DNA of 64,000 bases from Candidatus Margulisiibacteriota bacterium (GTDB lineage Bacteria; Margulisbacteria; Riflemargulisbacteria; GWF2-39-127), in the NCBI GenBank assembly GCA_003242895.1, contig QKMY01000045.1, positions 186,001 through 250,000 on the forward strand, read 5' to 3'. A program made the translations under genes and the position numbers. Positions 17,088 through 51,920 of the stretch are shown in pieces (within the stretch, counting starts at the first letter, position 1; each line of letters starts with the position of its first letter). Below the pieces are notes generated by a model that was not told where the DNA came from, searched no databases, and saw only the letters and a list, made by a program, of their open reading frames with translations.

Positions 17088-17140
17088 TAATTATAATCAG
17101 AGAAAATGTGCTCTCGGGTCTTAGGATTGAGGAGGTTGCC

Positions 17141-17818
17141 ATGAAGGAACACTACACAACGTTAAATATTATGGAAGGCGCTAGCCTGTCAGAAGTAAAA
17201 AAAGCATCTCGCAGACTCTTACTAAAATATCACCCGGACCTTCATCCAACGAACCAGTTATGGGCCGAAGAAAAAACTAAAAAGATACTTTTTGCCTATA
17301 ACTTTCTATGCGATACGCTTGCAGAAAACCAATCGAGCACATTTATAAACCGAGATGGTATTCATAAACAAACTACGCCTAAAATTCACACCGTTCCGTT
17401 AATGGTGTTCAGTCTGGGAAGTTTACTTTTCGCTGTCACGATAACTAATGTGAAAAGCATTACAGCCCTGCAAGCTCTTAAAATTGTTAGAATAACAAAC
17501 AGGAAAGGGCTCTATCCCTTTATTACAGGGATCACCCACTATCAAGGAACGATTGCCCCCTTACTCGACCTTGGAAACAAATTAAATCTTGAAACCTCAC
17601 TCCCGAAACAACAAGTGCTTATATGTGAAATTGAAGACCAACCGCTAGCGCTCATTATCGATGAAGGAAAAAATGTTATTAATATTGAAATGAATGACTT
17701 CTATAATCATGCACATTTCCAAGAGAGCGAAATTCCCCAAGTATACGTATCCAATGTTATAATAAATAAAGATAAAAAAATACATATTCTAGATCTCGGC
17801 AAGTTACTCACACATTAA
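17141..17818 (+). CDS. J-domain-CheW fusion protein
   Basis: A 225-residue protein combining two domains not normally found together. Residues 4-58 form an Hsp40 J domain: YTTLNIMEGASLSEVKKA, then KYHPD with the HPD triad at 31-33, and a third helix KTKKILFAYNFLCD. After a linker, residues about 78-225 form a CheW domain (MVFSLGSLLFAVTI, ITHYQGTIAPLLDLGNKL, ICEIEDQPLALIIDEGKNVI, ILDLGKLL). CheW couples receptors to CheA; the J domain would be expected to stimulate DnaK. ATG 17141 is chosen because GAGGAGG lies just upstream; the frame is open back to 17024, but that extension is hydrophobic and lacks a ribosome binding site. It is first in the cheC-cheD-cheB-cheR operon and the only CheW in the window. 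Confidence 0.85.
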   Translation: MKEHYTTLNIMEGASLSEVKKASRRLLLKYHPDLHPTNQLWAEEKTKKILFAYNFLCDTLAENQSSTFINRDGIHKQTTPKIHTVPLMVFSLGSLLFAVTITNVKSITALQALKIVRITNRKGLYPFITGITHYQGTIAPLLDLGNKLNLETSLPKQQVLICEIEDQPLALIIDEGKNVINIEMNDFYNHAHFQESEIPQVYVSNVIINKDKKIHILDLGKLLTH

Positions 17819-17839: not shown

Positions 17840-18499
17840 TTGCCGCTTAATTATATATCACATAAAGAAAATCAAGCATTAAATGCAATTCTCGCGGAAG
17901 GTCTTAATAATGGGGCACTTGCACTCTCAGAGATGCTCAACAAAAATATACAGATCAAGACTCCCGATACAAAAGTAATTAAACTAAGAGATCTCCCTAA
18001 TCTGCTCGGTGGCGCAGAGATAATAGTCACCGGGATTTTTTTGCGGTTCCAAGAAGGGCTTAACTTAAATGCTTTTGATATTTCCACAGGAATTTCAGGA
18101 AGTATCCTGATCCTTTTCTCCGTTGATAAAGCCTTCGAAATAACAAGCATTCTCCTGAGCAGTGTTGATTACACACCGGCAATAGATCCTAAAATGATCT
18201 TTGAGTCCGCCTTAGGTGAAGTAGGGAATATTACCGGATCAGCGGTACTGAACACTATCTCTGATAAATTAAAAATTCCTATTAACCCTTCACCACCTGC
18301 TGTTGTCACAGACATGGCCGGGTCATTACTTGAATCGGTTGCGGCAACATCACTCATTGAGGATAATGAAATAATTCTTATTGATACCTGCTTCATTAAT
18401 GAATCCAGAGAAATTAAAGGACACTTCATACTGCTTCCTGATTCAAAAGAAAGCATATTAGAAATCCTTAACAAACTAGGAGCCGCCAACAATGACTGA
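17840..18499 (+). CDS. cheC: CheC family CheY-P phosphatase
   Basis: Dephosphorylates CheY-P and partners with CheD. The 219 residues contain both CheC active-site motifs of the E-x-x-N type: E20/N23 in ILAEGLNNGALALSEML and E127/N130 in ESALGEVGNITGSAVLN. The length is close to the usual 200-210. The start is TTG 17840 with AAAGGAG at 17826-17832. It overlaps cheD by 8 bases, consistent with the CheC-CheD complex known from Bacillus and Thermotoga. A second, distinct phosphatase, CheX, lies at 43.7 kb. Confidence 0.88.
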   Translation: MPLNYISHKENQALNAILAEGLNNGALALSEMLNKNIQIKTPDTKVIKLRDLPNLLGGAEIIVTGIFLRFQEGLNLNAFDISTGISGSILILFSVDKAFEITSILLSSVDYTPAIDPKMIFESALGEVGNITGSAVLNTISDKLKIPINPSPPAVVTDMAGSLLESVAATSLIEDNEIILIDTCFINESREIKGHFILLPDSKESILEILNKLGAANND

Positions 18500-18983
18500 A
18501 ATGGTGATATCGGTGGGTCTTGGAGAGGTACACGTCTCTAAAGATCCCTCTGTTGTACTTGCTGCACATGGACTTGGCTCGTGTATTGGATTGCTAGCCT
18601 ATGATCCTATTCACAAAATCGGAGGCCTCGCCCATATTCTCCTCCCAGACAGTACCATTATTAAAGTATGCGATAATAAAGGAAAATTTGCCGACACGGC
18701 AATACCATACCTTATTGAACTAATGAAAGGACAAGGAGCAATCCAGATCAATCTGATGATCAAAATTGCCGGTGGAGCGCAAATGTTTGCTGTACCCGGT
18801 ATGAATTCAAAAATGAATATCGGAGAGAAAAACATCATTGCAGTAAAAAGAGCATTAAGCCAAGTCAACCTGAAAATAAAAGCCGAAGAAGTCGGGGGAC
18901 ATACTGGCCGCACAGTAAAATTATTCGTAAAAGACGGCACGTCTCTTATACGTACCGCAGGTTTAAATGAAAAAGTTTTTTGA
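18492..18983 (+). CDS. cheD: CheD chemoreceptor glutamine deamidase
   Basis: Deamidates receptor glutamines and stimulates CheC. It has 163 residues. The catalytic Cys is C31 in GLGSCIG and the His is H48 in GGLAHILLP. KIAGGAQMFAVPGMNSKMNIG and AEEVGGHTGRTVKL are further family markers. Relative to Thermotoga maritima CheD (T21, C27, H44), the Thr six residues before the Cys is Ala (A25) here. This could weaken deamidation while sparing CheC binding. It overlaps cheC and precedes cheB by 9 bases. Confidence 0.92.
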   Translation: MTEMVISVGLGEVHVSKDPSVVLAAHGLGSCIGLLAYDPIHKIGGLAHILLPDSTIIKVCDNKGKFADTAIPYLIELMKGQGAIQINLMIKIAGGAQMFAVPGMNSKMNIGEKNIIAVKRALSQVNLKIKAEEVGGHTGRTVKLFVKDGTSLIRTAGLNEKVF

Positions 18984-18992
18984 GGATTAATA

Positions 18993-20045
18993 ATGGCTGA
19001 ACGAATAAAAGTTATGATTGTCGATGATGCCGCTTATATCAGGTTTATATTAACAAAGTATTTGTCACAAGAACCTGATATCGAAGTCATTGCCACCGCA
19101 ACTAATGGGATAGATGCACTAAAAAAACTAGAAGAAATTCGTCCGGATGTCATGACAGTCGATATTGAGATGCCAGGGATGAATGGCATCGAGTTGTTAA
19201 AAAAGGTTATGTCTACGAACCCTGTTCCAATTATAATGCTTAGCAGCTTATCTCCTGAGATATCCGATATTACTATCAAAGCACTTCAATATGGTGCAAT
19301 TGATTTTATAAATAAAGATAGCATCAAGCTAAGTGTTGATGTTACAAAGGTACACCGAAAGCTTATTGATATTATTAAAACAGCTAAAATGGCTAAGTTA
19401 AAAAAACTTGAGCCAGACGACCAAATAACAGCTGCTCCCATTGTAAGACAAACCTCCTTTAAGATCACGAAGGCTCAAATAATCGCGATCGGATGTTCTA
19501 CCGGAGGACCAAAAGCACTCTATCACCTGGTCCCGTTATTACCACCAAATTTGCCGGCCGGAATTGTTATTGTACAGCATATGCCAGCAAAATTTACTAC
19601 TTCGCTGGCCAATAGATTAAATGAAATTTCTAAAATAAGTGTTAAAGAAGCTGAAGACGGAGACCTTGTATTGCCTGGTCGGGTGCTTATTGCACCAGGG
19701 GATTATCACATGGAAATTAAAGCTAATTTTACGGTAAAGTTGAATCAATCACCGCATGTAAATCACGTTCGACCAGCGGTTGATGTACTATTTAATTCCC
19801 TGCCTGCGGTATATGGCAAAAATATAACAGGAATTATTTTAACCGGCATGGGGCAAGATGGCGCTAATGGTGCAGAAACAATAAAAAAGAGCGGCGGATA
19901 TATTATTGCTGAAGCAGAAAGTACCTGCACGATTTACGGAATGCCTAAGGTTATTGCAGAAAGAAACCTAGCCGATAAAGTATTACCACTAACTGCTATC
20001 AATGAACAGATTATATCGTTTTTTAAGAATAAAGGGGAATTATAA
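18993..20045 (+). CDS. cheB: CheB chemoreceptor methylesterase/deamidase
   Basis: Removes methyl groups from receptors when phosphorylated. Residues 5-120 are a receiver domain with phospho-acceptor D57 (VMTVDIEMPGMNG) and acidic pair D11/D12. Residues about 160-345 are the methylesterase: catalytic Ser in GCSTGGPKAL, His in VQHMPAKFT and Asp in TGMGQDGANG. The total of 350 residues is standard. It sits between cheD and cheR; its TAA overlaps the cheR ATG by one base. Confidence 0.97.
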   Translation: MAERIKVMIVDDAAYIRFILTKYLSQEPDIEVIATATNGIDALKKLEEIRPDVMTVDIEMPGMNGIELLKKVMSTNPVPIIMLSSLSPEISDITIKALQYGAIDFINKDSIKLSVDVTKVHRKLIDIIKTAKMAKLKKLEPDDQITAAPIVRQTSFKITKAQIIAIGCSTGGPKALYHLVPLLPPNLPAGIVIVQHMPAKFTTSLANRLNEISKISVKEAEDGDLVLPGRVLIAPGDYHMEIKANFTVKLNQSPHVNHVRPAVDVLFNSLPAVYGKNITGIILTGMGQDGANGAETIKKSGGYIIAEAESTCTIYGMPKVIAERNLADKVLPLTAINEQIISFFKNKGEL

Positions 20046-20839
20046 TGGACGTTATTATAGATGATATGGACTATACCCTCTTTAAGAGGAAAGTGAATGA
20101 TTTTATTGGATTTGACCTTAACTCCTATAAACAAAAGCAAATGTATCGCAGGCTTAATTCGCTCATCGCCCGATTAAATGTGAAAACTTTTGCAGACTAT
20201 TTTAATTTGATTAAAAATGATCCATCTAAACTGGAAGAGTTTAAAAATTTTGTAACAATTAATGTTACGGAATTTTTTAGAAATCCAGAAAAATTTGATG
20301 ACTTGATTCAATTTGTCCTCCCTGAATTAATTAAGAACAGCCATAATGGCTTAAAAATATGGAGTGCAGGCTGTTCTTTAGGCGCGGAAGCATATACTCT
20401 CTCAATTATTATGCAGGAGAACTTCAGATTTGTTCCATACTCAATAATTGCCACTGATATCGATGAGGAAATCCTAAAAAAAGCCAAGCTTGGCGTTTAC
20501 ATGGAAAACGAAATAAGGAATATTCCAAAACACATATTAAATAAATATTTTACACAAAACGATAAAGGAGGGGCAATTCAAGAGAATGTAAAGAAGAATG
20601 TAACCTTTAAAAAAAATAATTTATTACAGGATATATTCGAGCGTGACTTTGACCTCATACTCTGCCGAAATGTTGTCATCTACTTTACAGAAGAAACTAA
20701 AAATATTTTATACAAAAAGTTTTATGATTCACTAAAAGCAAATGGAATATTATTTGTCGGTGGAACAGAAAACATTCTCAATTCAAAAGAATTGGGTTTC
20801 ATCGTGCCAAAGCCATTTTTTTATAAAAAAGCTAAATAA
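20045..20839 (+). CDS. cheR: CheR chemoreceptor methyltransferase
   Basis: SAM-dependent enzyme methylating receptor glutamates. It has 264 residues. The helical N-domain (about 1-75) ends with NVTEFFRNPEKF. SAM motif I is IWSAGCSLGAEAYTLSII. ATDIDEEILKKAK and FDLILCRNVVIYFTEE are the second and fourth motifs, and LFVGGTENI closes the fold. It starts at an ATG overlapping the cheB stop (TAATG), implying coupling. With CheB and CheD it forms the adaptation arm, although no receptor is in the window. Confidence 0.96.
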   Translation: MDVIIDDMDYTLFKRKVNDFIGFDLNSYKQKQMYRRLNSLIARLNVKTFADYFNLIKNDPSKLEEFKNFVTINVTEFFRNPEKFDDLIQFVLPELIKNSHNGLKIWSAGCSLGAEAYTLSIIMQENFRFVPYSIIATDIDEEILKKAKLGVYMENEIRNIPKHILNKYFTQNDKGGAIQENVKKNVTFKKNNLLQDIFERDFDLILCRNVVIYFTEETKNILYKKFYDSLKANGILFVGGTENILNSKELGFIVPKPFFYKKAK

Positions 20840-20876
20840 GATCTCTAGTAACGATAAGGCGCAAAAGGAAGGCTAT

Positions 20877-21719
20877 ATGTCAGATAATTTATTAAATTAT
20901 ATCTTAAATAAAATTAGAGACTTACCCCCACTTCCGGAGAGTACCCATAAAATTCTTCAAATTGCAGGGAATAATGCTTCATCTGCCAAAGATCTTGCAA
21001 AAGTTTTAGAAAAAGACTTATCGCTCACTACAAAAGTCTTGAAACTAGTCAACTCGTCATTTTATGGCTTCTCCAGAGAGATTTCTACAATTTCGCAGGC
21101 TGTAGTATATTTAGGCTTTAATACAATAAAAAGTCTTGTATTAACAGCTTCATCATACGATACGCTCAATAAAGATGTCGTATCGTATGAACTTGAAAAA
21201 GGGATGTTATGGAAGCACTCAATTGCCTGCGCGTCTTGCTCTCGTCTAATAGCCAAGGAAATAAAATACAGTGACCCAGAAGAAGCATATATTGCCGGGC
21301 TTATTCACGATATCGGGAAATTAATGATTGACCAATATGCGAATAATCTCTTCAAGCTTATTCTTGAAAAAGTTACTACAGATGCAATATCTTTCGATAA
21401 GGCAGAAAAAGAAGTACTTGGATTTGACCATCCTGAAATAGGTAGCAAAATTGCACAAAAATGGAATTTCCCTTTATCTCTGGTAGAATCGATTTCTTAT
21501 CATCATCAACCGGAAAATGCTACAAATCATAAAGAACTAACCTATATCGTACACCTGGCAAACACTATTACCGCTATGGCAGGTATCGGTATTGGCAATG
21601 ACTCCCTGCAATATAATTTTCAACCGAATACCCTCGATATCTTACAATTAAAGGAAGAGAACGTACAAAATTATATCATTCAATTATCAGAAATTATAAA
21701 TAAAGATATTGCGTCCTAA
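20877..21719 (+). CDS. HDOD-domain protein
   Basis: A 280-residue protein with an HDOD domain (about 10-205), a fold related to HD phosphohydrolases and found in signalling and motility proteins. It shows RDLPPLPESTHKILQ, LTTKVLKLVNSSFYG, AVVYLGFNTIKSLVLTAS and AGLIHDIGKLMID, so the HD pair is retained, and a second HHQPENA motif later. ATG 20877 is chosen because AAAGGAAGG precedes it, although the frame is open further back into cheR. It is last in the chemotaxis operon. The partner is unknown; a link to c-di-GMP or flagellar control is only a family-level guess. Confidence 0.85.
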   Translation: MSDNLLNYILNKIRDLPPLPESTHKILQIAGNNASSAKDLAKVLEKDLSLTTKVLKLVNSSFYGFSREISTISQAVVYLGFNTIKSLVLTASSYDTLNKDVVSYELEKGMLWKHSIACASCSRLIAKEIKYSDPEEAYIAGLIHDIGKLMIDQYANNLFKLILEKVTTDAISFDKAEKEVLGFDHPEIGSKIAQKWNFPLSLVESISYHHQPENATNHKELTYIVHLANTITAMAGIGIGNDSLQYNFQPNTLDILQLKEENVQNYIIQLSEIINKDIAS

Positions 21720-21947: not shown

Positions 21948-23051
21948 ATGAGTAATATATTAACACAAGAAGAAATAGATGCTCTTTTAGCTGCGTCAAA
22001 CCTAGCCGAGGAAGGAGCCCTAGCGGCTCCGCAATCTGCAACCGCGAATAATTCATCTTCTCAACAAGAAAGTCCGGTCGTTAAACGAGGTGCGAGAACT
22101 AGTAAGAGGATTTCTCTCTATGATTTCAGACGCCCGAACAAATTTTCAAAAGATCATATGCGTCATATTCAGATGATACATGATAATTTTTCCCGTATCT
22201 ACAAGCCCACACTAACCTTCCAACTACGAACAAACGCGCACTTGCGCCTCATCTATATTGAACAGCACTCCTATGAAGAGTTTCTGGATCTTGCTAATAA
22301 CCAAACAATCTACGCCATACTTTCTTTTTTAAAAGGTCGGGCGATATTGGGCATTGATATACAAACCATTTTAGTAATAATAGAAAGGCTGCTCGGTGGC
22401 GAAGGTAGTGCGAATTTAAATCGCAGAGAACTCACCGATATAGAGATGAGCCTTTTCCAGCGTATGCTGGAACGTATTATTGCAAGCTTAACTGAAGCAT
22501 GGGGTAGTATTCTTACCTCAACCCCTAAAGTAGAACTTATTGAGAACAATCCGCAAGTGATACAAATCGTTTCCCCAAATGAGATTGTTATCAAGCTTGT
22601 CATTGAAATAGCTATTGGAGAAGAATACACAGGGAACATTACCCTTTGCTATCCCTACGTTTCCCTAGCACCAATAATCGACGATCTAGGGTCATATCAA
22701 TGGATTACGTCAGAAATCGAAAAAACATTTACCCAAGAAGATGAAGCTTTCATCAAAAGAAGAATTGAAAAAACTAAAGTTCCTATAATTTTTGAATTAG
22801 GAAAGACAACAATAACCTTACGAGACTTGCTTAACCTTCAAATAGGAGACATTATTAAGCTCGATAAACGAGCTACTGATAATCTCCCGTTAAAAATAGG
22901 AGGCAAAATAAAGTTTCTTGGTCAGTGTGGCATTATTGGAAAGAATTTAGCTGGCAAAATTGAAGAGGCTATATATCCCGATAGCGATGACAGCTATATT
23001 AATAGAATACTCGATAAAGAAAATAACCGGTTTTTAAAAGAGCCTGATTAG
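21948..23051 (+). CDS. fliM: Flagellar motor switch protein FliM
   Basis: C-ring component binding CheY-P. It has 367 residues. The N-terminus ILTQEEIDALLAA is the CheY-P-binding peptide (usual form LSQxEIDALL). A Ser/Gln-rich linker runs to about residue 45. The FliM middle domain includes YDFRRPNKFSKDHMRHIQ and LLGGEGSANLNRRELTDIE. The last 80 residues form the FliN-like domain (ELGKTTITLRDLLNLQIGDI). No fliN, fliG or fliY is adjacent, so it is detached from the usual flagellar operon and sits beside the chemotaxis operon. ATG 21948 has no clear ribosome binding site. The 230-base gap before it holds no called gene. Confidence 0.96.
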   Translation: MSNILTQEEIDALLAASNLAEEGALAAPQSATANNSSSQQESPVVKRGARTSKRISLYDFRRPNKFSKDHMRHIQMIHDNFSRIYKPTLTFQLRTNAHLRLIYIEQHSYEEFLDLANNQTIYAILSFLKGRAILGIDIQTILVIIERLLGGEGSANLNRRELTDIEMSLFQRMLERIIASLTEAWGSILTSTPKVELIENNPQVIQIVSPNEIVIKLVIEIAIGEEYTGNITLCYPYVSLAPIIDDLGSYQWITSEIEKTFTQEDEAFIKRRIEKTKVPIIFELGKTTITLRDLLNLQIGDIIKLDKRATDNLPLKIGGKIKFLGQCGIIGKNLAGKIEEAIYPDSDDSYINRILDKENNRFLKEPD

Positions 23052-44647: not shown

Positions 44648-46792
44648 TCAATATCTTACGTTTTTATTATAATTACTCATATTAATAATGTTGTTGATTT
44701 CAGCTGTTCTTCTAATAATTGTTGCTACATCGATGATAAGTGCGATGGTGCCATCGCCTAATATTGCAGCACCTGAAATACCGGCACTCTCGGTGAGTTC
44801 ACTGGTCAATGATTTAATGACGATTTCCTGTTCCCCCATGCAAGCGTCAACAACAAGCCCAACATGCTGTTCAGCGATGTTGATTATCGCGACATCGGCA
44901 AGCTCTATTTCTTTATAAGGCAAATCCGGATTAAAGTAATTATTTAATCGAATAAGAGGAATTACTAGATCACGCAAAGCAATCATCTCATTTCCATTGA
45001 CCATTTTAATACTATTTGTAGAAATTTCAATTATCTCTGTAACCGAAGATAAAGGGACGGCAAAAACCCCGTTATTGATCTTTACAAGTAATGTCGGAAT
45101 AATAGCTAAAGTTAAGGGAAGTTTAATCAGAAATGTGGTGCCTTTATTAATTTCTGAAATAATTTTGATTGTTCCATTGAGTTTTTCGATATTCCTCTTA
45201 ACAATATCCATTCCAACCCCACGGCCGGACAAATCATTAACCTGCGTCGAAGTAGAAAATCCCGGCTGAAGAATTAAATACAAGATCTCTTGCTCAAGCA
45301 TTTTCTGGGCTTCTGCCTTATTAATCATACCTAGTTCAATGGCTTTTTGTTTAACTAAATCCAGATCAATCCCGCGGCCATCATCAGAAATCTTTATGAC
45401 AATTTGATTTCCTTCGTGGCAAGCATCTAACCGAAGCGTCCCGTTTTCCGGCTTCCCAAGTGCACTTCGTTCACTATATGTCTCGATACCATGATCGACA
45501 CAATTCCTCACGATATGCATGATCGGGTCCCGGATTTCTTCTATAACCCGTTTATCCAGCTCGGTTTCCTGTCCGGTTATTTCCAGATTGATCTTTTTAT
45601 CCAATTTCCTGGAAATGTCACGGACTAATCTAGGAAATTTGTTGAATATCTGGTTTATTTTTATCATCCGAAGCTGCATTATTCCTTCTTGCAGATCGTT
45701 GGTTATTTTCTTTAACTGCGTTACTGTTTCATTGAGGTGAGAGACAAAACTCAAATTGCTATGTGTTTTTTTTATTCCGGTAACTACCTGTGAGAATCGA
45801 GATCGATTAATAAGCAGCTCTCCAACTAAATTTAATAAGTTATCAACCCGTTGAGAATCTACTTTTAAGGTAGAAGTAACACTCCCTAAAATTGCCGGAT
45901 CCAGTTCATTTATATTCGGTTTTTCTTGAGGAGGCATAAGCACAGGGCTAACCTGGGGAAGATTGTTCTTTGTTTTTTCAGTTTTAAAAACATTTTTTAA
46001 AGCGTCCAGATTTATCGCCAAAATGTTTAATGACTTACATTCCGGTATTTTCAAGGATTTCAAAAGCTCGTTTTTCTTTGCATCAGAGGCAAGGACAAAG
46101 GTGATCCTGGTGCCGTCATAATCCTCTGAAAGCTCCACCGGCGGGTCGGACCAGATAATAGTTCCAAAGCCACCTAACTTTGTAAACAGCATAAAAACAA
46201 TAAGTGAATTCATTGGAATATCTTCTTTTAGTTGAATACATCCGCCAAAAACATCAATGTTCTCATTTAATTTTCGTTGTATTTTCTTAAGAATATTTTC
46301 AGGCAAGTTAGAAATCAGGGTATCTATAGTAAGAGAATTAATAGCCGTGGCAGCAGTTTTCTCCTTTACATTTTTTTGATTAGAATTTTCGATCTTTTTA
46401 ACCGGAGTAACAGAAATAATGTTCTCAAGCTTTTCTAGAATGTCATCAATCTTAATTGCATTAAAATCATTTGAATTAATCTTTGCCAGATAACTTTTTA
46501 AAAAATCCGAGGTTGTAAAAAAAACATCGATAATGTTTGGGGTGACCTGCAGTTTATCATTTCTAATATAATGAAAAATATCTTCCATGGCGTGCGTTAA
46601 TTGAGTAAAGTTCTCAAACCCCATGGCTGCTGAACCACCCTTCAGTGTATGGGTAGCCCTGAAAATGTTATTAATACACTCTTTATTGCCTGGGTCTTTT
46701 TCAAGCTCAAGCAACGAGTTATTAAGTATTTCTATTTTTTCTTCAGCTTCATTGATAAACTCATCTAACAAAGCCTTTCTATAGTCTTCCAA
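44648..46792 (-). CDS. cheA: Chemotaxis histidine kinase CheA
   Basis: Cytoplasmic kinase controlled by receptors and CheW. It has 714 residues. P1 Hpt domain with phospho-His H48 (FRATHTLKGGSAAMGF). A P2 CheY-binding domain lies around 175-265 (FGGCIQLKEDIPMNS). P3 dimerisation helices about 315-385. P4 ATPase: NCVDHGIETY, DDGRGIDLDLV, and STSTQVNDLSGRGVGMDIV. P5 CheW-like domain about 570-714. The start is TTG 46792 after GGAGG. It is the only CheA here. The only CheW-type coupling protein visible is the J-domain fusion at 17.1 kb. Confidence 0.97.
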   Translation of the reverse strand: MEDYRKALLDEFINEAEEKIEILNNSLLELEKDPGNKECINNIFRATHTLKGGSAAMGFENFTQLTHAMEDIFHYIRNDKLQVTPNIIDVFFTTSDFLKSYLAKINSNDFNAIKIDDILEKLENIISVTPVKKIENSNQKNVKEKTAATAINSLTIDTLISNLPENILKKIQRKLNENIDVFGGCIQLKEDIPMNSLIVFMLFTKLGGFGTIIWSDPPVELSEDYDGTRITFVLASDAKKNELLKSLKIPECKSLNILAINLDALKNVFKTEKTKNNLPQVSPVLMPPQEKPNINELDPAILGSVTSTLKVDSQRVDNLLNLVGELLINRSRFSQVVTGIKKTHSNLSFVSHLNETVTQLKKITNDLQEGIMQLRMIKINQIFNKFPRLVRDISRKLDKKINLEITGQETELDKRVIEEIRDPIMHIVRNCVDHGIETYSERSALGKPENGTLRLDACHEGNQIVIKISDDGRGIDLDLVKQKAIELGMINKAEAQKMLEQEILYLILQPGFSTSTQVNDLSGRGVGMDIVKRNIEKLNGTIKIISEINKGTTFLIKLPLTLAIIPTLLVKINNGVFAVPLSSVTEIIEISTNSIKMVNGNEMIALRDLVIPLIRLNNYFNPDLPYKEIELADVAIINIAEQHVGLVVDACMGEQEIVIKSLTSELTESAGISGAAILGDGTIALIIDVATIIRRTAEINNIINMSNYNKNVRY

Positions 46793-47007: not shown

Positions 47008-47034
47008 TTAGCACTCGCATGCGTCGAGTGCCAG
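47008..47034 (+). promoter_or_regulatory. CIRCE operator (HrcA binding site)
   Basis: TTAGCACTC (47008-47016), a nine-base spacer and GAGTGCCAG (47026-47034). This matches the CIRCE consensus TTAGCACTC-N9-GAGTGCTAA except for two bases near the 3' end. It overlaps the expected transcription start, so HrcA should repress its own operon and release it on heat shock. Confidence 0.95.
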
Positions 47035-47071
47035 CTCAATAAGATTGTAAACTAGAAATATACGATAGCAT

Positions 47072-48109
47072 ATGGATAAAAGAAAAAATTCTATTTTGCA
47101 AGCTGTTATAAATAGCTACATTGATTCTGGCAACGCCATAAGCTCGAGTAAACTGGCGCAAGATTATGGCTTTCATGTAAGCCCGGCCACTATTCGCAGT
47201 GAACTTGCCCTATTGGAAACAGAGGGTTATCTAACTCATCCCCATACCTCTTCAGGCAGAGTCCCAACGGATAAAGGATACAGATTTTACGTTGATAATT
47301 ATGTCAAAAGTCACTTAACACCAAATGACACCAGAACAGAAGTCATTAAAACTTATAAGGACCTGTTTAATGATATAAGCTTGATCCTTGAGCAGACAGC
47401 ATATATTCTCGCTGAGCTCACCAACTGTTTCTGCTTTATTTCTATGCCTGATATGAGGCATAGTATAATAAAAATGATCAAAGTAATACTCCTTAATGTT
47501 CATCAGATACTTGTTGTCATATTAATGGACACCGGCATAAGCAAAGATTTTCTCATCAACGGCTCCGAGAAAATTGATGATGCCGATTTAGACCAGATAT
47601 CGAACTTACTTCACAAAACATTCCTGGATAAAAGTTTTGCCGAGCTAGAAAATCTTGAACTTAAAAAAATGCTCGGAGAACTTCCTGGACATAAGAAATT
47701 ACTGGAAAAAACATTCCAGGTCATTAAAAATGCAGGTGCATATCTTAAGGAAAGACCCACGATTTTCAAAAAAGGCGCATCAAATCTCATGATCTACAAT
47801 CATGACTTCTCCTGCATTGAAGATCTAAGGGGGATTGTTGAGGTTATCGAACAGGAAAAAACTCTTGCCAATCTAATTTTCGAAAAAAATACCACAGCTG
47901 ATGAGGTAAACTTTACTATAGGCTCCGAAAATAACGAAAATAGATTAAGGAGTTGCACTATGGCGCAAGTTAGTTATACTGTGAACGATAATGAAGGTGA
48001 TGTTGTAGTAATTGGACCTCGGAGATTGAAATATATGAATATATCAACTGTACTCCATGCCGTATCAAAAAATCTTGATACGATAATTAATGAACAAATA
48101 ACGAATTAG
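47072..48109 (+). CDS. hrcA: Heat-inducible transcription repressor HrcA
   Basis: A 345-residue repressor that binds CIRCE and is held active by chaperonin. The N-terminal winged helix shows ILQAVINSYIDSGNAISSSK and VSPATIRSELALLETEGYLT, followed by HPHTSSGRVPTDKGYRFYVD, the family signature. The C-terminal GAF-like dimer domain includes GSENNENRLRSCTMAQVSY. ATG 47072 lacks a strong ribosome binding site. It is first in hrcA-grpE-dnaK-dnaJ; no groEL is in the window. Confidence 0.97.
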   Translation: MDKRKNSILQAVINSYIDSGNAISSSKLAQDYGFHVSPATIRSELALLETEGYLTHPHTSSGRVPTDKGYRFYVDNYVKSHLTPNDTRTEVIKTYKDLFNDISLILEQTAYILAELTNCFCFISMPDMRHSIIKMIKVILLNVHQILVVILMDTGISKDFLINGSEKIDDADLDQISNLLHKTFLDKSFAELENLELKKMLGELPGHKKLLEKTFQVIKNAGAYLKERPTIFKKGASNLMIYNHDFSCIEDLRGIVEVIEQEKTLANLIFEKNTTADEVNFTIGSENNENRLRSCTMAQVSYTVNDNEGDVVVIGPRRLKYMNISTVLHAVSKNLDTIINEQITN

Positions 48110-48121
48110 AGGGGGGGAAAG

Positions 48122-48757
48122 ATGAATCCAACAGGTGAAAACAACCAAGAAAATGAGAACACGTCGGAATCCAATGAAAAGGAAAAAGTAATAATCCATG
48201 AAAATCCGGGAGAGAATGTCGCTATGACATCAGAACCTGAACTTAAGGAAAAACCCGAAGAAGTTAACAAAATAATTGAGGAAATGCCCGAGCTGACAAA
48301 AGAGAAAGAAGTTGAAGAAAAAAACAAAGTAATAGAGGAACAAAAAGATAAATATTTACGGCTACTCGCAGAATTTGATAATTTCAAAAAAAGAAAAGAA
48401 GAAGAAAAAATAAATCTACTTAAATCAGCGAATGAAAAGCTACTCAAGGAATTCCTTACAGTGCTTGATAGTTTTGATCAAGCTTTTTTGAATATCGATG
48501 AAAAGACAAAAAATGAAAGCGTTACAAAAGGACTTGAATTAATCCACAAACAAGTGGAAAATTTCATCACCAAACACCATATTGAGCCAATAGAAGCGGT
48601 AGGAACAAAGTTTGATCCGCACGTTCATAATGCAGTAATGGAAGAAGACTCAGATAAGTATGAGCCGGGAGTTGTCACTAAAGAATTGCAAAAAGGATAT
48701 TTGTTTCACGGTAAAGTATTAAGGCCTACCATGGCTATAGTTTCCAAAGAAAAATAA
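48122..48757 (+). CDS. grpE: GrpE nucleotide exchange factor
   Basis: Releases ADP from DnaK. It has 211 residues. The first 75 are a long acidic disordered tail (Glu and Lys rich). A coiled coil with YLRLLAEFDNFKKRKEEEK follows, then the beta domain with PIEAVGTKFDPHVHNAVME and GYLFHGKVLRPTMAIVSK. A strong ribosome binding site (GAGGGGGGG) precedes ATG 48122. Confidence 0.97.
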   Translation: MNPTGENNQENENTSESNEKEKVIIHENPGENVAMTSEPELKEKPEEVNKIIEEMPELTKEKEVEEKNKVIEEQKDKYLRLLAEFDNFKKRKEEEKINLLKSANEKLLKEFLTVLDSFDQAFLNIDEKTKNESVTKGLELIHKQVENFITKHHIEPIEAVGTKFDPHVHNAVMEEDSDKYEPGVVTKELQKGYLFHGKVLRPTMAIVSKEK

Positions 48758-48775
48758 AATAAGGGGGTTACAATA

Positions 48776-50683
48776 ATGGGAAAAGTAATAGGTATAGATT
48801 TAGGAACAACAAATTCGTGCGTAGCTGTTATGGAGGGTGGCGAAGCAACTGTCATCACTAATGCAGAAGGAGGAAGAACGACACCTTCAATTGTTGCCTT
48901 TACCAAAACAGGAGAAAGGTTAGTTGGACAAGTTGCTAAAAGACAGGCAGTTACCAACCCCCACAATACGATATTTTCTATTAAGCGTTTTATGGGGCGT
49001 AAAGAAAACGAAGTAAGAGAAGAAGAGAAAATTGTCCCGTACAAAATTGTTAATGGCAAGAATGGAGACGCAGTTGTCGATATTCAGGGAAAACATTATG
49101 CTCCTCCTGAAATATCAGCAATGATCCTCCAGAAAATGAAATCAGACGCTGAAGCCTACTTAGGAGAAAAAGTAACCCAGGCAGTTATCACTGTCCCGGC
49201 ATATTTCAATGACAGCCAACGACAAGCAACCAAAGATGCCGGAAGGATAGCAGGACTCGAAGTTCTAAGAATTATTAACGAACCGACAGCGGCCGCATTA
49301 GCATATGGAATAGACAAAAAGAAAAAGGAAGAAAAAATTGCTGTCTATGACTTCGGCGGCGGTACCTTTGACATCTCTATCCTAGAATTGGGAGAAGGTG
49401 TATTCGAAGTTCTTTCAACCAATGGCGATACCCACCTGGGCGGAGATAACATTGATTCTAAAATTATTGAGTGGCTAGTTACTGAGTTTAAAAAAGAGCA
49501 GGGAATCGACCTCTCAAAGGACACAATGGCACTCCAACGATTAAAAGAAGCTTCCGAAAAAGCAAAAATCGAACTTTCTTCAACACAGCAGACAGAAATC
49601 AACTTACCGTTCATTACAGCAGACAGCAGCGGACCGAAACATCTTAATTATAATCTCACGAGAGCTAAGTTTAATCAGATGATCGAAGATTTCGTAAGAC
49701 GCTCGATCGAGCCCTGCAAAATCGCAATTAAGGATGCCGGACTATCAGTGAATGAAATCGATGAAGTAATTCTCGTGGGAGGCACAACAAGAATTCCTTA
49801 TATCCAGGAAAAAGTGAAAGAAGTGTTTGGCAAAGAACCAAACAAAAGCGTTAACCCAGATGAAGTTGTTGCCTTAGGAGCCGCAATTCAAGCCGGAGTT
49901 CTTGCCGGAGATGTAAAAGATGTCGTACTTCTTGACGTCACACCGCTTTCACTAGGAATAGAGACTCTTGGCGGTGTTTTTACAAAACTGCTCGAGAAAA
50001 ACACGACGATACCAACAAAGAAAAGCCAGGTATTCTCGACTGCGGCAGACGGACAGACTTCAGTCGATATTCACGTTCTTCAAGGTGAAAGAGCCATGGC
50101 TGGTGACAATAGAACGCTTGGAAGATTCCAGTTGACTTCCATCCCGCCAGCACCAAGAGGAATTCCGCAGATAGAGGTTACTTTCGATATCGACGCAAAC
50201 GGGATTGTTCACGTTTCTGCAAAAGATAAGGGAACAGGAAAAGAACAGAAAATAACCATAACTGCATCTTCAGGATTAAATGACACTGAAATAGAAAAGA
50301 TGAGGCAAGATGCCGAATCACATGAAGATGAAGACAAGAAAAGAAAAGAACTGATTGAGGCACGTAATGAAGCCGATTCACTCATATACTCTGCTGAAAA
50401 AACAATAAAAGACCTCGGAGACAAAGTTGATACAGCGACAAAAGATTCTATCAACGGTGATATTAGTGAACTTAGAAAAGCTATGGATTCCGATGATAAA
50501 GACAAAATTAAAGCTGGAATAGAAAAACTGCAGCAAGAGATATATAACGTCTCGTCAAAAATGTATGAACAACAAGGGCAAGAAGGCCCGCAACAAGGCA
50601 CTGGAGAAGAAACAGAACAGCAACAGAAAGCAGATGACGATAATGTTGTCGACGCAGAAGTCGTCGATGATGATAAAAAATAA
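48776..50683 (+). CDS. dnaK: Chaperone DnaK (Hsp70)
   Basis: ATP-driven chaperone. At 635 residues it is typical. Markers: [61 protein letters not shown] and [13 protein letters not shown] in the ATPase domain, then [14 protein letters not shown] and the substrate domain. The C-terminus is rich in Gln, Glu and Asp and ends [14 protein letters not shown] precedes ATG 48776. It is the expected partner of DnaJ and possibly of the J-domain-CheW protein. Confidence 0.99.
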
Positions 50684-50703
50684 ACTCTAAATTTGATAGC
50701 AAG

Positions 50704-50737
50704 CGGTTGCCAGTCTGATATACACCACTGGCACCCG
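50704..50737 (+). terminator. Hairpin between dnaK and dnaJ
   Basis: An 11-bp stem with one mismatch (50704-50714 with 50727-50737) followed by TTATTTATC. It could be a partial terminator lowering dnaJ expression or an RNA-stabilising hairpin. Confidence 0.5.
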
Positions 50738-50765
50738 TTATTTATCAGAAAAGAATGAGGTAATA

Positions 50766-51920
50766 ATGGCAAAGACTGATTATTACGAAGTACTGGGTAT
50801 CCCAAAAGATGCATCAGAAAGTGATATAAAAAAAGCTTACCGGAAATTAGCCCGGCAATTCCATCCTGATGTCAATAAAAGCCCAGATTCCAGCCACAAA
50901 TTCAAAGAAATCAATGAGGCCTACGAAACACTAGCTGACCCGAAAAAAAGATCTCAATATGACCAATACGGTCACGTTGACGAGTCGGCGGGACAAGGGT
51001 TCGGGGGCGGTTATGGTGGGTTCGAAGGATTTGGCGGATTCGAAGATATTTTTGAGTCATTTTTTGGAGGTACTTCTGCTAGAAGAACAAGGAGAGAGAC
51101 CGGACCTCGCAGAGGCGATGATCTTCGTTACGACTTATCAATAACACTCGAAGAGGCAGCAACAGGAATCGAAAGAGAAATCGACATCTTCAATTATCAA
51201 ACCTGCGCAACCTGCGCCGGATCAGGTGCTCGTCCGGGAACGAAACAAGCTACCTGCCCTACCTGCGGCGGCTCAGGCGAAGTTCAGCAAGTACAAAGAA
51301 CTATTCTCGGAAGTTTTACGCAGGTAACAACCTGCCCGAACTGCGGTGGAAAGGGGAAAGTAATTTCCAATCCCTGCGCTACATGTGGAGGTTCTGGGCG
51401 CGAAAAGAAAAAACAGACAGTTAAGGTCAGGATCCCAGCGGGAGTCGATACAGGAGCAAAATTGCGGGTAAGCGGAGCCGGAAATACCGGTGCAAACGGA
51501 GGACCTCCGGGAGACCTGTATATTTTTATCTCGGTGAAAACTCATCCGGTATTTGCCCGTGAGGGTGATGATATCAGTACTTCAGTAAAAATCTCCTTTG
51601 CACAAGCTGCGTTAGGCGATGAAATTGAAGTCCCAACTTTAAGTGGTCCGGTTGGACTTAAAGTCCCGCCTGGAACCCAATCCCACACTACATTCAGGAT
51701 AAAAGGAAAAGGCATCCCCCATTTACATGCCCGAGGCATCGGGGATGAACATGTGCTCGTTAAAATTGTTACACCAACATACCTTAATCAAGAAGAAAGT
51801 GATATCATGGAATATTTTGCCCATTTGCAAGGGGTTAACTTAAAAAAACAAAAGAACACCAAATTATTTGAAAAAATCAAAAAAGCGTTAAAAGACCAAT
51901 TTGGGGTTGCAATATTTTAA
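50766..51920 (+). CDS. dnaJ: Chaperone DnaJ (Hsp40, class A)
   Basis: Co-chaperone stimulating DnaK. It has 384 residues. J domain 4-70 with HPD in QFHPDVNK, a Gly/Phe-rich region about 75-110, and a zinc-binding domain with four CxxCxGxG repeats ([32 protein letters not shown]). The C-terminal substrate domains follow. It is the full-length, general DnaJ, in contrast to the J domain fused to CheW. GAGG lies before ATG 50766. It ends 3' to 3' against pilO with a 4-base overlap. Confidence 0.99.

Follow-up and report, generated by a model that had tools for sequence, protein, structure and literature searches.

Chemoreceptors, CheA and CheW form very stable lattices, whose assembly and turnover are, to our knowledge, poorly understood. 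The stretch of DNA analysed here (64,000 nucleotides, hereafter the window) contains a gene, J-CheW, whose product carries an Hsp40-type J domain ahead of a CheW domain and which heads a chemotaxis operon. Is this gene a genuine fusion, and does its product act as a coupling CheW or as a co-chaperone directed to a particular target? The initial annotation knew of no described CheW with a J domain; none was found in the literature that we searched either, and the survey of prokaryotic J proteins by Barriot et al. (2020), which lay outside that search, may already list the pair. The features discussed below are collected in Table 1.

Table 1. Features of the J-CheW operon and of its presumed partners in the window
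Feature	Position	Strand	Evidence
J-CheW gene, 225 aa: J domain 3-59, linker about 64-82, CheW domain 87-224	17141..17818	+	translation, Pfam, AlphaFold, Foldseek
Shine-Dalgarno region (TTGAGGAGGTTG) of J-CheW gene	17126..17137	+	read directly from sequence
J domain, intact HPD (31-33), basic helix II (K20, R24, R25), no helix IV modelled	17147..17317	+	Pfam, AlphaFold, 5nro_B match
Divergent CheW domain; E38-equivalent S106, R62-equivalent Q135	17399..17812	+	Pfam, alignments, long branch
cheC	17840..18499	+	PF04509 5.2e-11
cheD	18492..18983	+	PF03975 9.2e-30
cheB	18993..20045	+	PF01339 3.2e-66, receiver domain
cheR	20045..20839	+	PF01739 1.2e-56
HDOD-domain protein	20874..21719	+	PF08668 1.4e-65
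fliM, flagellar switch	21948..23051	+	PF02154 2e-47, FliMN_C
cheA, sole CheA in the window, candidate docking partner (P5 CheW-like)	44648..46792	-	Hpt, P2, dimer, ATPase, CheW domains
CIRCE-like operator (47008-47034), then hrcA-grpE-dnaK-dnaJ, the presumed partner Hsp70 system	47008..51920	+	operator search, Pfam

A single frame encodes a J domain and a CheW domain

Translation, Pfam and structure matching agreed with the initial annotation that J-CheW is one 225-residue frame with an intact HPD motif. A GAGGAGG Shine-Dalgarno sequence stands 5 nt before the ATG at 17141. The frame is open back to 17024, and the position of the Shine-Dalgarno sequence favours the start at 17141 over this upstream extension. 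No Shine-Dalgarno sequence was read ahead of the internal Met88 or of the CheW part, so that the one strong ribosome-binding site lies before the J domain, as had been claimed. In the Pfam search only DnaJ and CheW reached their cut-offs, far beyond what chance would give; no G/F region, zinc finger or DnaJ_C domain was found.

The DnaJ family (PF00226) matched residues 3–59 with an E value of 4e-13 (49.7 bits against a cut-off of 27.8). In the AlphaFold model, which was built from a five-row alignment, the J part had block-mean pLDDT values of 85–92 and formed helices at residues 2–7, 16–29 and 36–64, with the HPD motif (H31-P32-D33) between the latter two; residues 64–82 formed a low-confidence linker. 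Foldseek matched the J part to a DnaK-bound J domain (5nro_B) with an rmsd of 2.1 Å over 60 columns. Thus, the N-terminal ~60 residues are confidently modelled as a J fold. The basic residues of helix II are kept, as aligned by eye to the DnaJ encoded in the window; helix IV was not seen in the model, and Ser23 corresponds to Tyr25 of that DnaJ. The J domain is probably active. We class J-CheW as a class C (specialist) J-domain protein, with a J domain above the cut-off, an intact HPD and none of the other parts of DnaJ.

Operon and genome context

J-CheW was correctly placed at the head of the che operon: it opens the run J-CheW-cheC-cheD-cheB-cheR-HDOD-fliM (Pfam), with a DUF190 gene upstream on the opposite strand. 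It had also been described as the only CheW in the window. It is indeed the sole stand-alone one, but the CheA encoded at 44648–46792 on the minus strand has a CheW domain as well; CheA and CheX lie at 43.7–46.8 kb. The canonical dnaK and dnaJ noted earlier are present in hrcA-grpE-dnaK-dnaJ (47072–51920), and directly before hrcA we found a CIRCE-like HrcA operator with 2 mismatches, where chance would give 0.01 such sites. This was the one such site in the whole window, and none was found at the J-CheW operon. HrcA heat-shock control of that operon was therefore rejected, and the earlier suggestion of heat-tuning found no support.

The source genome encodes 12 CheW domains, several che systems and HtpG, and has about 30 receptor-domain matches. 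Two J domains were detected in it; as the other belongs to the canonical DnaJ, no specialist J protein besides J-CheW was detected in this genome.

The CheW domain keeps the fold and lacks the Glu/Arg pair

The CheW family (PF01584) matched residues 87–224 with an E value of 1.4e-17 (64.1 bits against a cut-off of 23.5), covering profile positions 2–135 of 138. Foldseek matched J-CheW to the CheW structures 2qdl, 2ch4 and 6s1k at E values of 1e-7 to 1e-6, and the AlphaFold model had a CheW-like beta fold at moderate confidence in this part. In our tree the domain grouped with CheWs, not with the P5 domains of CheA, and its branch was some ten times the median length. Unlike in the five aligned canonical CheWs of the source genome, the conserved Glu38/Arg62 pair is replaced, by S106 and Q135. 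The ‘complete CheW domain’ of the initial annotation is therefore complete at the level of the fold, while two hallmark residues are gone.

A conserved salt bridge joins Arg62 to Glu38 in the CheW of E. coli; the R62A protein binds receptor and CheA with near-normal affinity and is impaired in chemotaxis, and changes of Glu38 weaken receptor binding (PMC3828127). A CheW that lacks this arginine could in principle still dock, as R62A retains near-normal affinity, whereas the docking of J-CheW itself could be weakened, as the equivalent of Glu38 matters for receptor binding (PMC3828127). The replaced pair and the very long branch lead us to predict that J-CheW is at most a docking module; receptor binding may possibly have been lost, and the protein is probably not a signalling CheW. 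Although its CheW domain scores above the cut-off, we do not file it as a coupling CheW. The idea of an ordinary coupling CheW is further disfavoured by four syntenic relatives without a recognisable CheW.

Relatives at the same locus conserve the J domain

The window comes from an uncultured aquatic bacterium, and the members of its class that bear a name are Candidatus Marinamargulisbacteria. Among the eight class genomes examined, four relatives share with the window a J-domain protein (221–227 aa) encoded directly before cheD-cheR-HDOD-fliM. Three of the eight have cysE-cheD-(cheR)-HDOD-fliM without the J-domain gene (cysE was named by reading the translation); as these genomes keep their che genes, the J-domain gene is dispensable for the che module.

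The J domains of the four relatives are 44–48% identical to that of the window, and among the relatives the J part is 55–97% conserved versus 25–74% for the C-terminal part. The latter gave no Pfam match in the three proteins searched, an hhalign probability of 0.2% against CheW for the four taken together, and z-scores below 0, no better than shuffled sequence, when aligned to the CheW domain of the window; its model was of low confidence. It could be either a CheW too diverged to be recognised or a different domain. With no CheW recognisable in the four closest relatives, the target of this family may not be the array.

Very long, repetitive-looking open reading frames lie immediately upstream of the operon in the relatives (L032 1–8463, L034 10218–19901, L073 1–6594, L075 1–5196 and L076 8347–15000). 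They encode 1731–3227 aa within the stretches examined and, in four of these, have as their neighbour the J gene or a gene resembling serine acetyltransferase. The HDOD protein (window 20874–21719; L084 3965–4996) is a constant neighbour of cheD and cheR in the class and in the Armatimonadota cluster described below.

A second J-CheW occurs in Armatimonadota

The domain pair was also sought in other genomes. When 84,980 species genomes were scanned with two short peptide patterns, a search that is thus not exhaustive, one further J+CheW protein came up, in Armatimonadota bacterium JPNA_maxbin.160 (L084; DnaJ 5.8e-8, CheW 9.9e-22); a contig scan with the J-CheW protein alone as the query gave no match. 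The fusion thus recurs in a second phylum, and it does so inside a che/fli cluster: cheC-cheD-HDOD-cheB-cheR-cheY-cheX-[J-CheW], followed by flagellar genes including fliF and fliI (gene names from blastp against those of the window and from reading translations). The Armatimonadota protein keeps both residues of the Glu/Arg pair in the alignment, and the HPD motif is invariant in all members found in the two phyla.

Full-length J-CheW was found in one of 291 Armatimonadota genomes. None was found in the rest of the 74 genomes of the window’s phylum, in 399 genomes from the phylum that includes a Heliobacteriaceae bacterium (G083), or in 386 from the phylum to which a Gastranaerophilales genome belongs, this last search having no positive control. 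The Armatimonadota, G083 and Gastranaerophilales searches scored the best 6–8 candidates per genome, so that their counts are lower bounds. Within the genomes and candidates so covered, a broad distribution of J-CheW was rejected.

Do the two proteins share an origin? Both CheW domains sit on very long branches of the CheW tree, and in both the same loop is longer by about 5 residues. In a tree of J domains, the Armatimonadota J-CheW grouped with J-propeller proteins of Armatimonadota (support 99/98), which makes independent assembly of the two genes possible; this tree is biased, as its rows were chosen by a shared peptide pattern. The J-propeller genes (L141 1189–1722 and L142 403–1689, both on minus strands), present in two of the 291 Armatimonadota genomes, encode a J domain of the same W-A-x3-T type fused to an apparent PQQ-type beta-propeller, a further apparent J-domain fusion. 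Short J proteins of Desulfobacterota (L085 7938–8276 and L095 7953–8273), which share a conserved C-terminal tail, KYLKDEEWW, grouped with the J domains of J-CheW in the same pattern-selected tree, weakly (81/87).

Proposed role and alternatives

J proteins target Hsp70 to its clients (PMC8215388), and in E. coli the interactions of HtpG with CheA and FliN depend on the DnaJ/CbpA-DnaK pathway (PMC3708813). The joining of a J domain to CheW suggests that DnaK is sent specifically to the chemosensory or motility machinery. Our preferred reading, to which we give a probability of roughly 0.4, is that J-CheW is a class C co-chaperone with the CheW domain as its targeting part, bringing DnaK to CheA, receptor arrays or the flagellar switch to assemble or remodel them. 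It draws on two domains that both exceed their Pfam cut-offs and are matched by structure, on the retained HPD and basic helix II residues, on the syntenic J-domain gene of the four relatives with the J part as its most conserved portion, and on the che/fli location of the second J-CheW; the unseen helix IV, Ser23 at the position of the DnaJ tyrosine, the lost Glu38 equivalent, the relatives without a recognisable CheW and the three class genomes that lack the gene weaken it. We infer the steps as follows. The CheW domain would dock on CheA P5, on receptor-CheW rings or on both, without normal signal coupling, or alternatively on CheA or switch proteins that have just been synthesised. The J domain would then pass the bound protein to DnaK-ATP and trigger hydrolysis, with possible onward transfer of the client to HtpG. 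The signalling lattice and the switch may thereby be helped in their assembly, exchange or quality control. If this is true, J-CheW would be a built-in Hsp70 address label for the chemosensory machinery. We put forward more tentatively the broader proposal that, with this operon-encoded Hsp40 bringing DnaK to arrays, lattice assembly and turnover would be ATP-driven and chaperone-controlled in at least two phyla.

The CheW domain might instead have been repurposed to bind a non-array partner encoded next to it, such as the HDOD protein, CheC/CheD or FliM and export parts, to which the J domain would bring DnaK. The constant neighbours would fit this (cheD, HDOD and fliM in the class; cheC, cheD, HDOD, cheX and fli genes in Armatimonadota), as would the lost coupling pair of the window protein and a C-terminal domain that is replaced or unrecognisable in the relatives. 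However, both J-CheW proteins have good CheW scores and the Armatimonadota one keeps the Glu/Arg pair, and we regard this alternative as unlikely, if the one to be taken most seriously. We think it distinctly improbable that J-CheW is still a signalling CheW whose coupling is tuned by free DnaK, as a sensor of chaperone load or temperature. The replaced residues, the operon without a CIRCE site and the loss of a recognisable CheW in the relatives all speak against such a sensor, even though the CheW fold is complete, the genome has several che systems and about 30 receptor-domain matches, and the Armatimonadota protein retains its coupling residues.

A J domain that had lost its function with DnaK, and whose helix bundle had just a structural or binding role, would agree with the helix IV missing from the model and the serine in place of Tyr25; with an HPD invariant across two phyla and a J part that is the best conserved portion among the relatives, we give this little credence. 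Finally, a sequencing or assembly error could have joined two genes, given that the source genome is in 82 contigs and that the named relatives are metagenome-assembled. We rejected such an artefact as hardly credible: the frame is uninterrupted behind a single ribosome-binding site, four same-class genomes have, at this position of the operon, a J-domain gene with the same J plus C-terminal layout, and another phylum has an independent J+CheW gene.

Comparison with known systems

J-CheW resembles CheW of E. coli and T. maritima in its fold, its PF01584 match and its place on the CheW side of the tree, and differs from them in the N-terminal J domain, the replaced Glu38/Arg62 equivalents and the very long branch. 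E. coli likewise has an Hsp70-dependent chaperone path to array and switch proteins, in which HtpG and DnaK act on CheA and FliN; there, general co-chaperones (DnaJ and CbpA) serve, whereas a dedicated J protein is proposed here (PMC3708813). DnaK1/DnaJ3 of Nostoc (PMC9239167) and StkA of Myxococcus (PMC4319316) are Hsp70 systems tied to motility under chemotaxis-like control; they concern type IV pilus motility and polysaccharide, and the parts of these reports available to us describe no J-CheW fusion. AtcJ of Shewanella, also of class C, is a J protein that heads its own operon and docks its partner through its C-terminus (PMC6715715). Like J-CheW, it has only the J domain in common with DnaJ, and in both the C-terminal part is the (for J-CheW, presumed) targeting part; that of AtcJ is a 21-residue tail, whereas that of J-CheW is a CheW domain.
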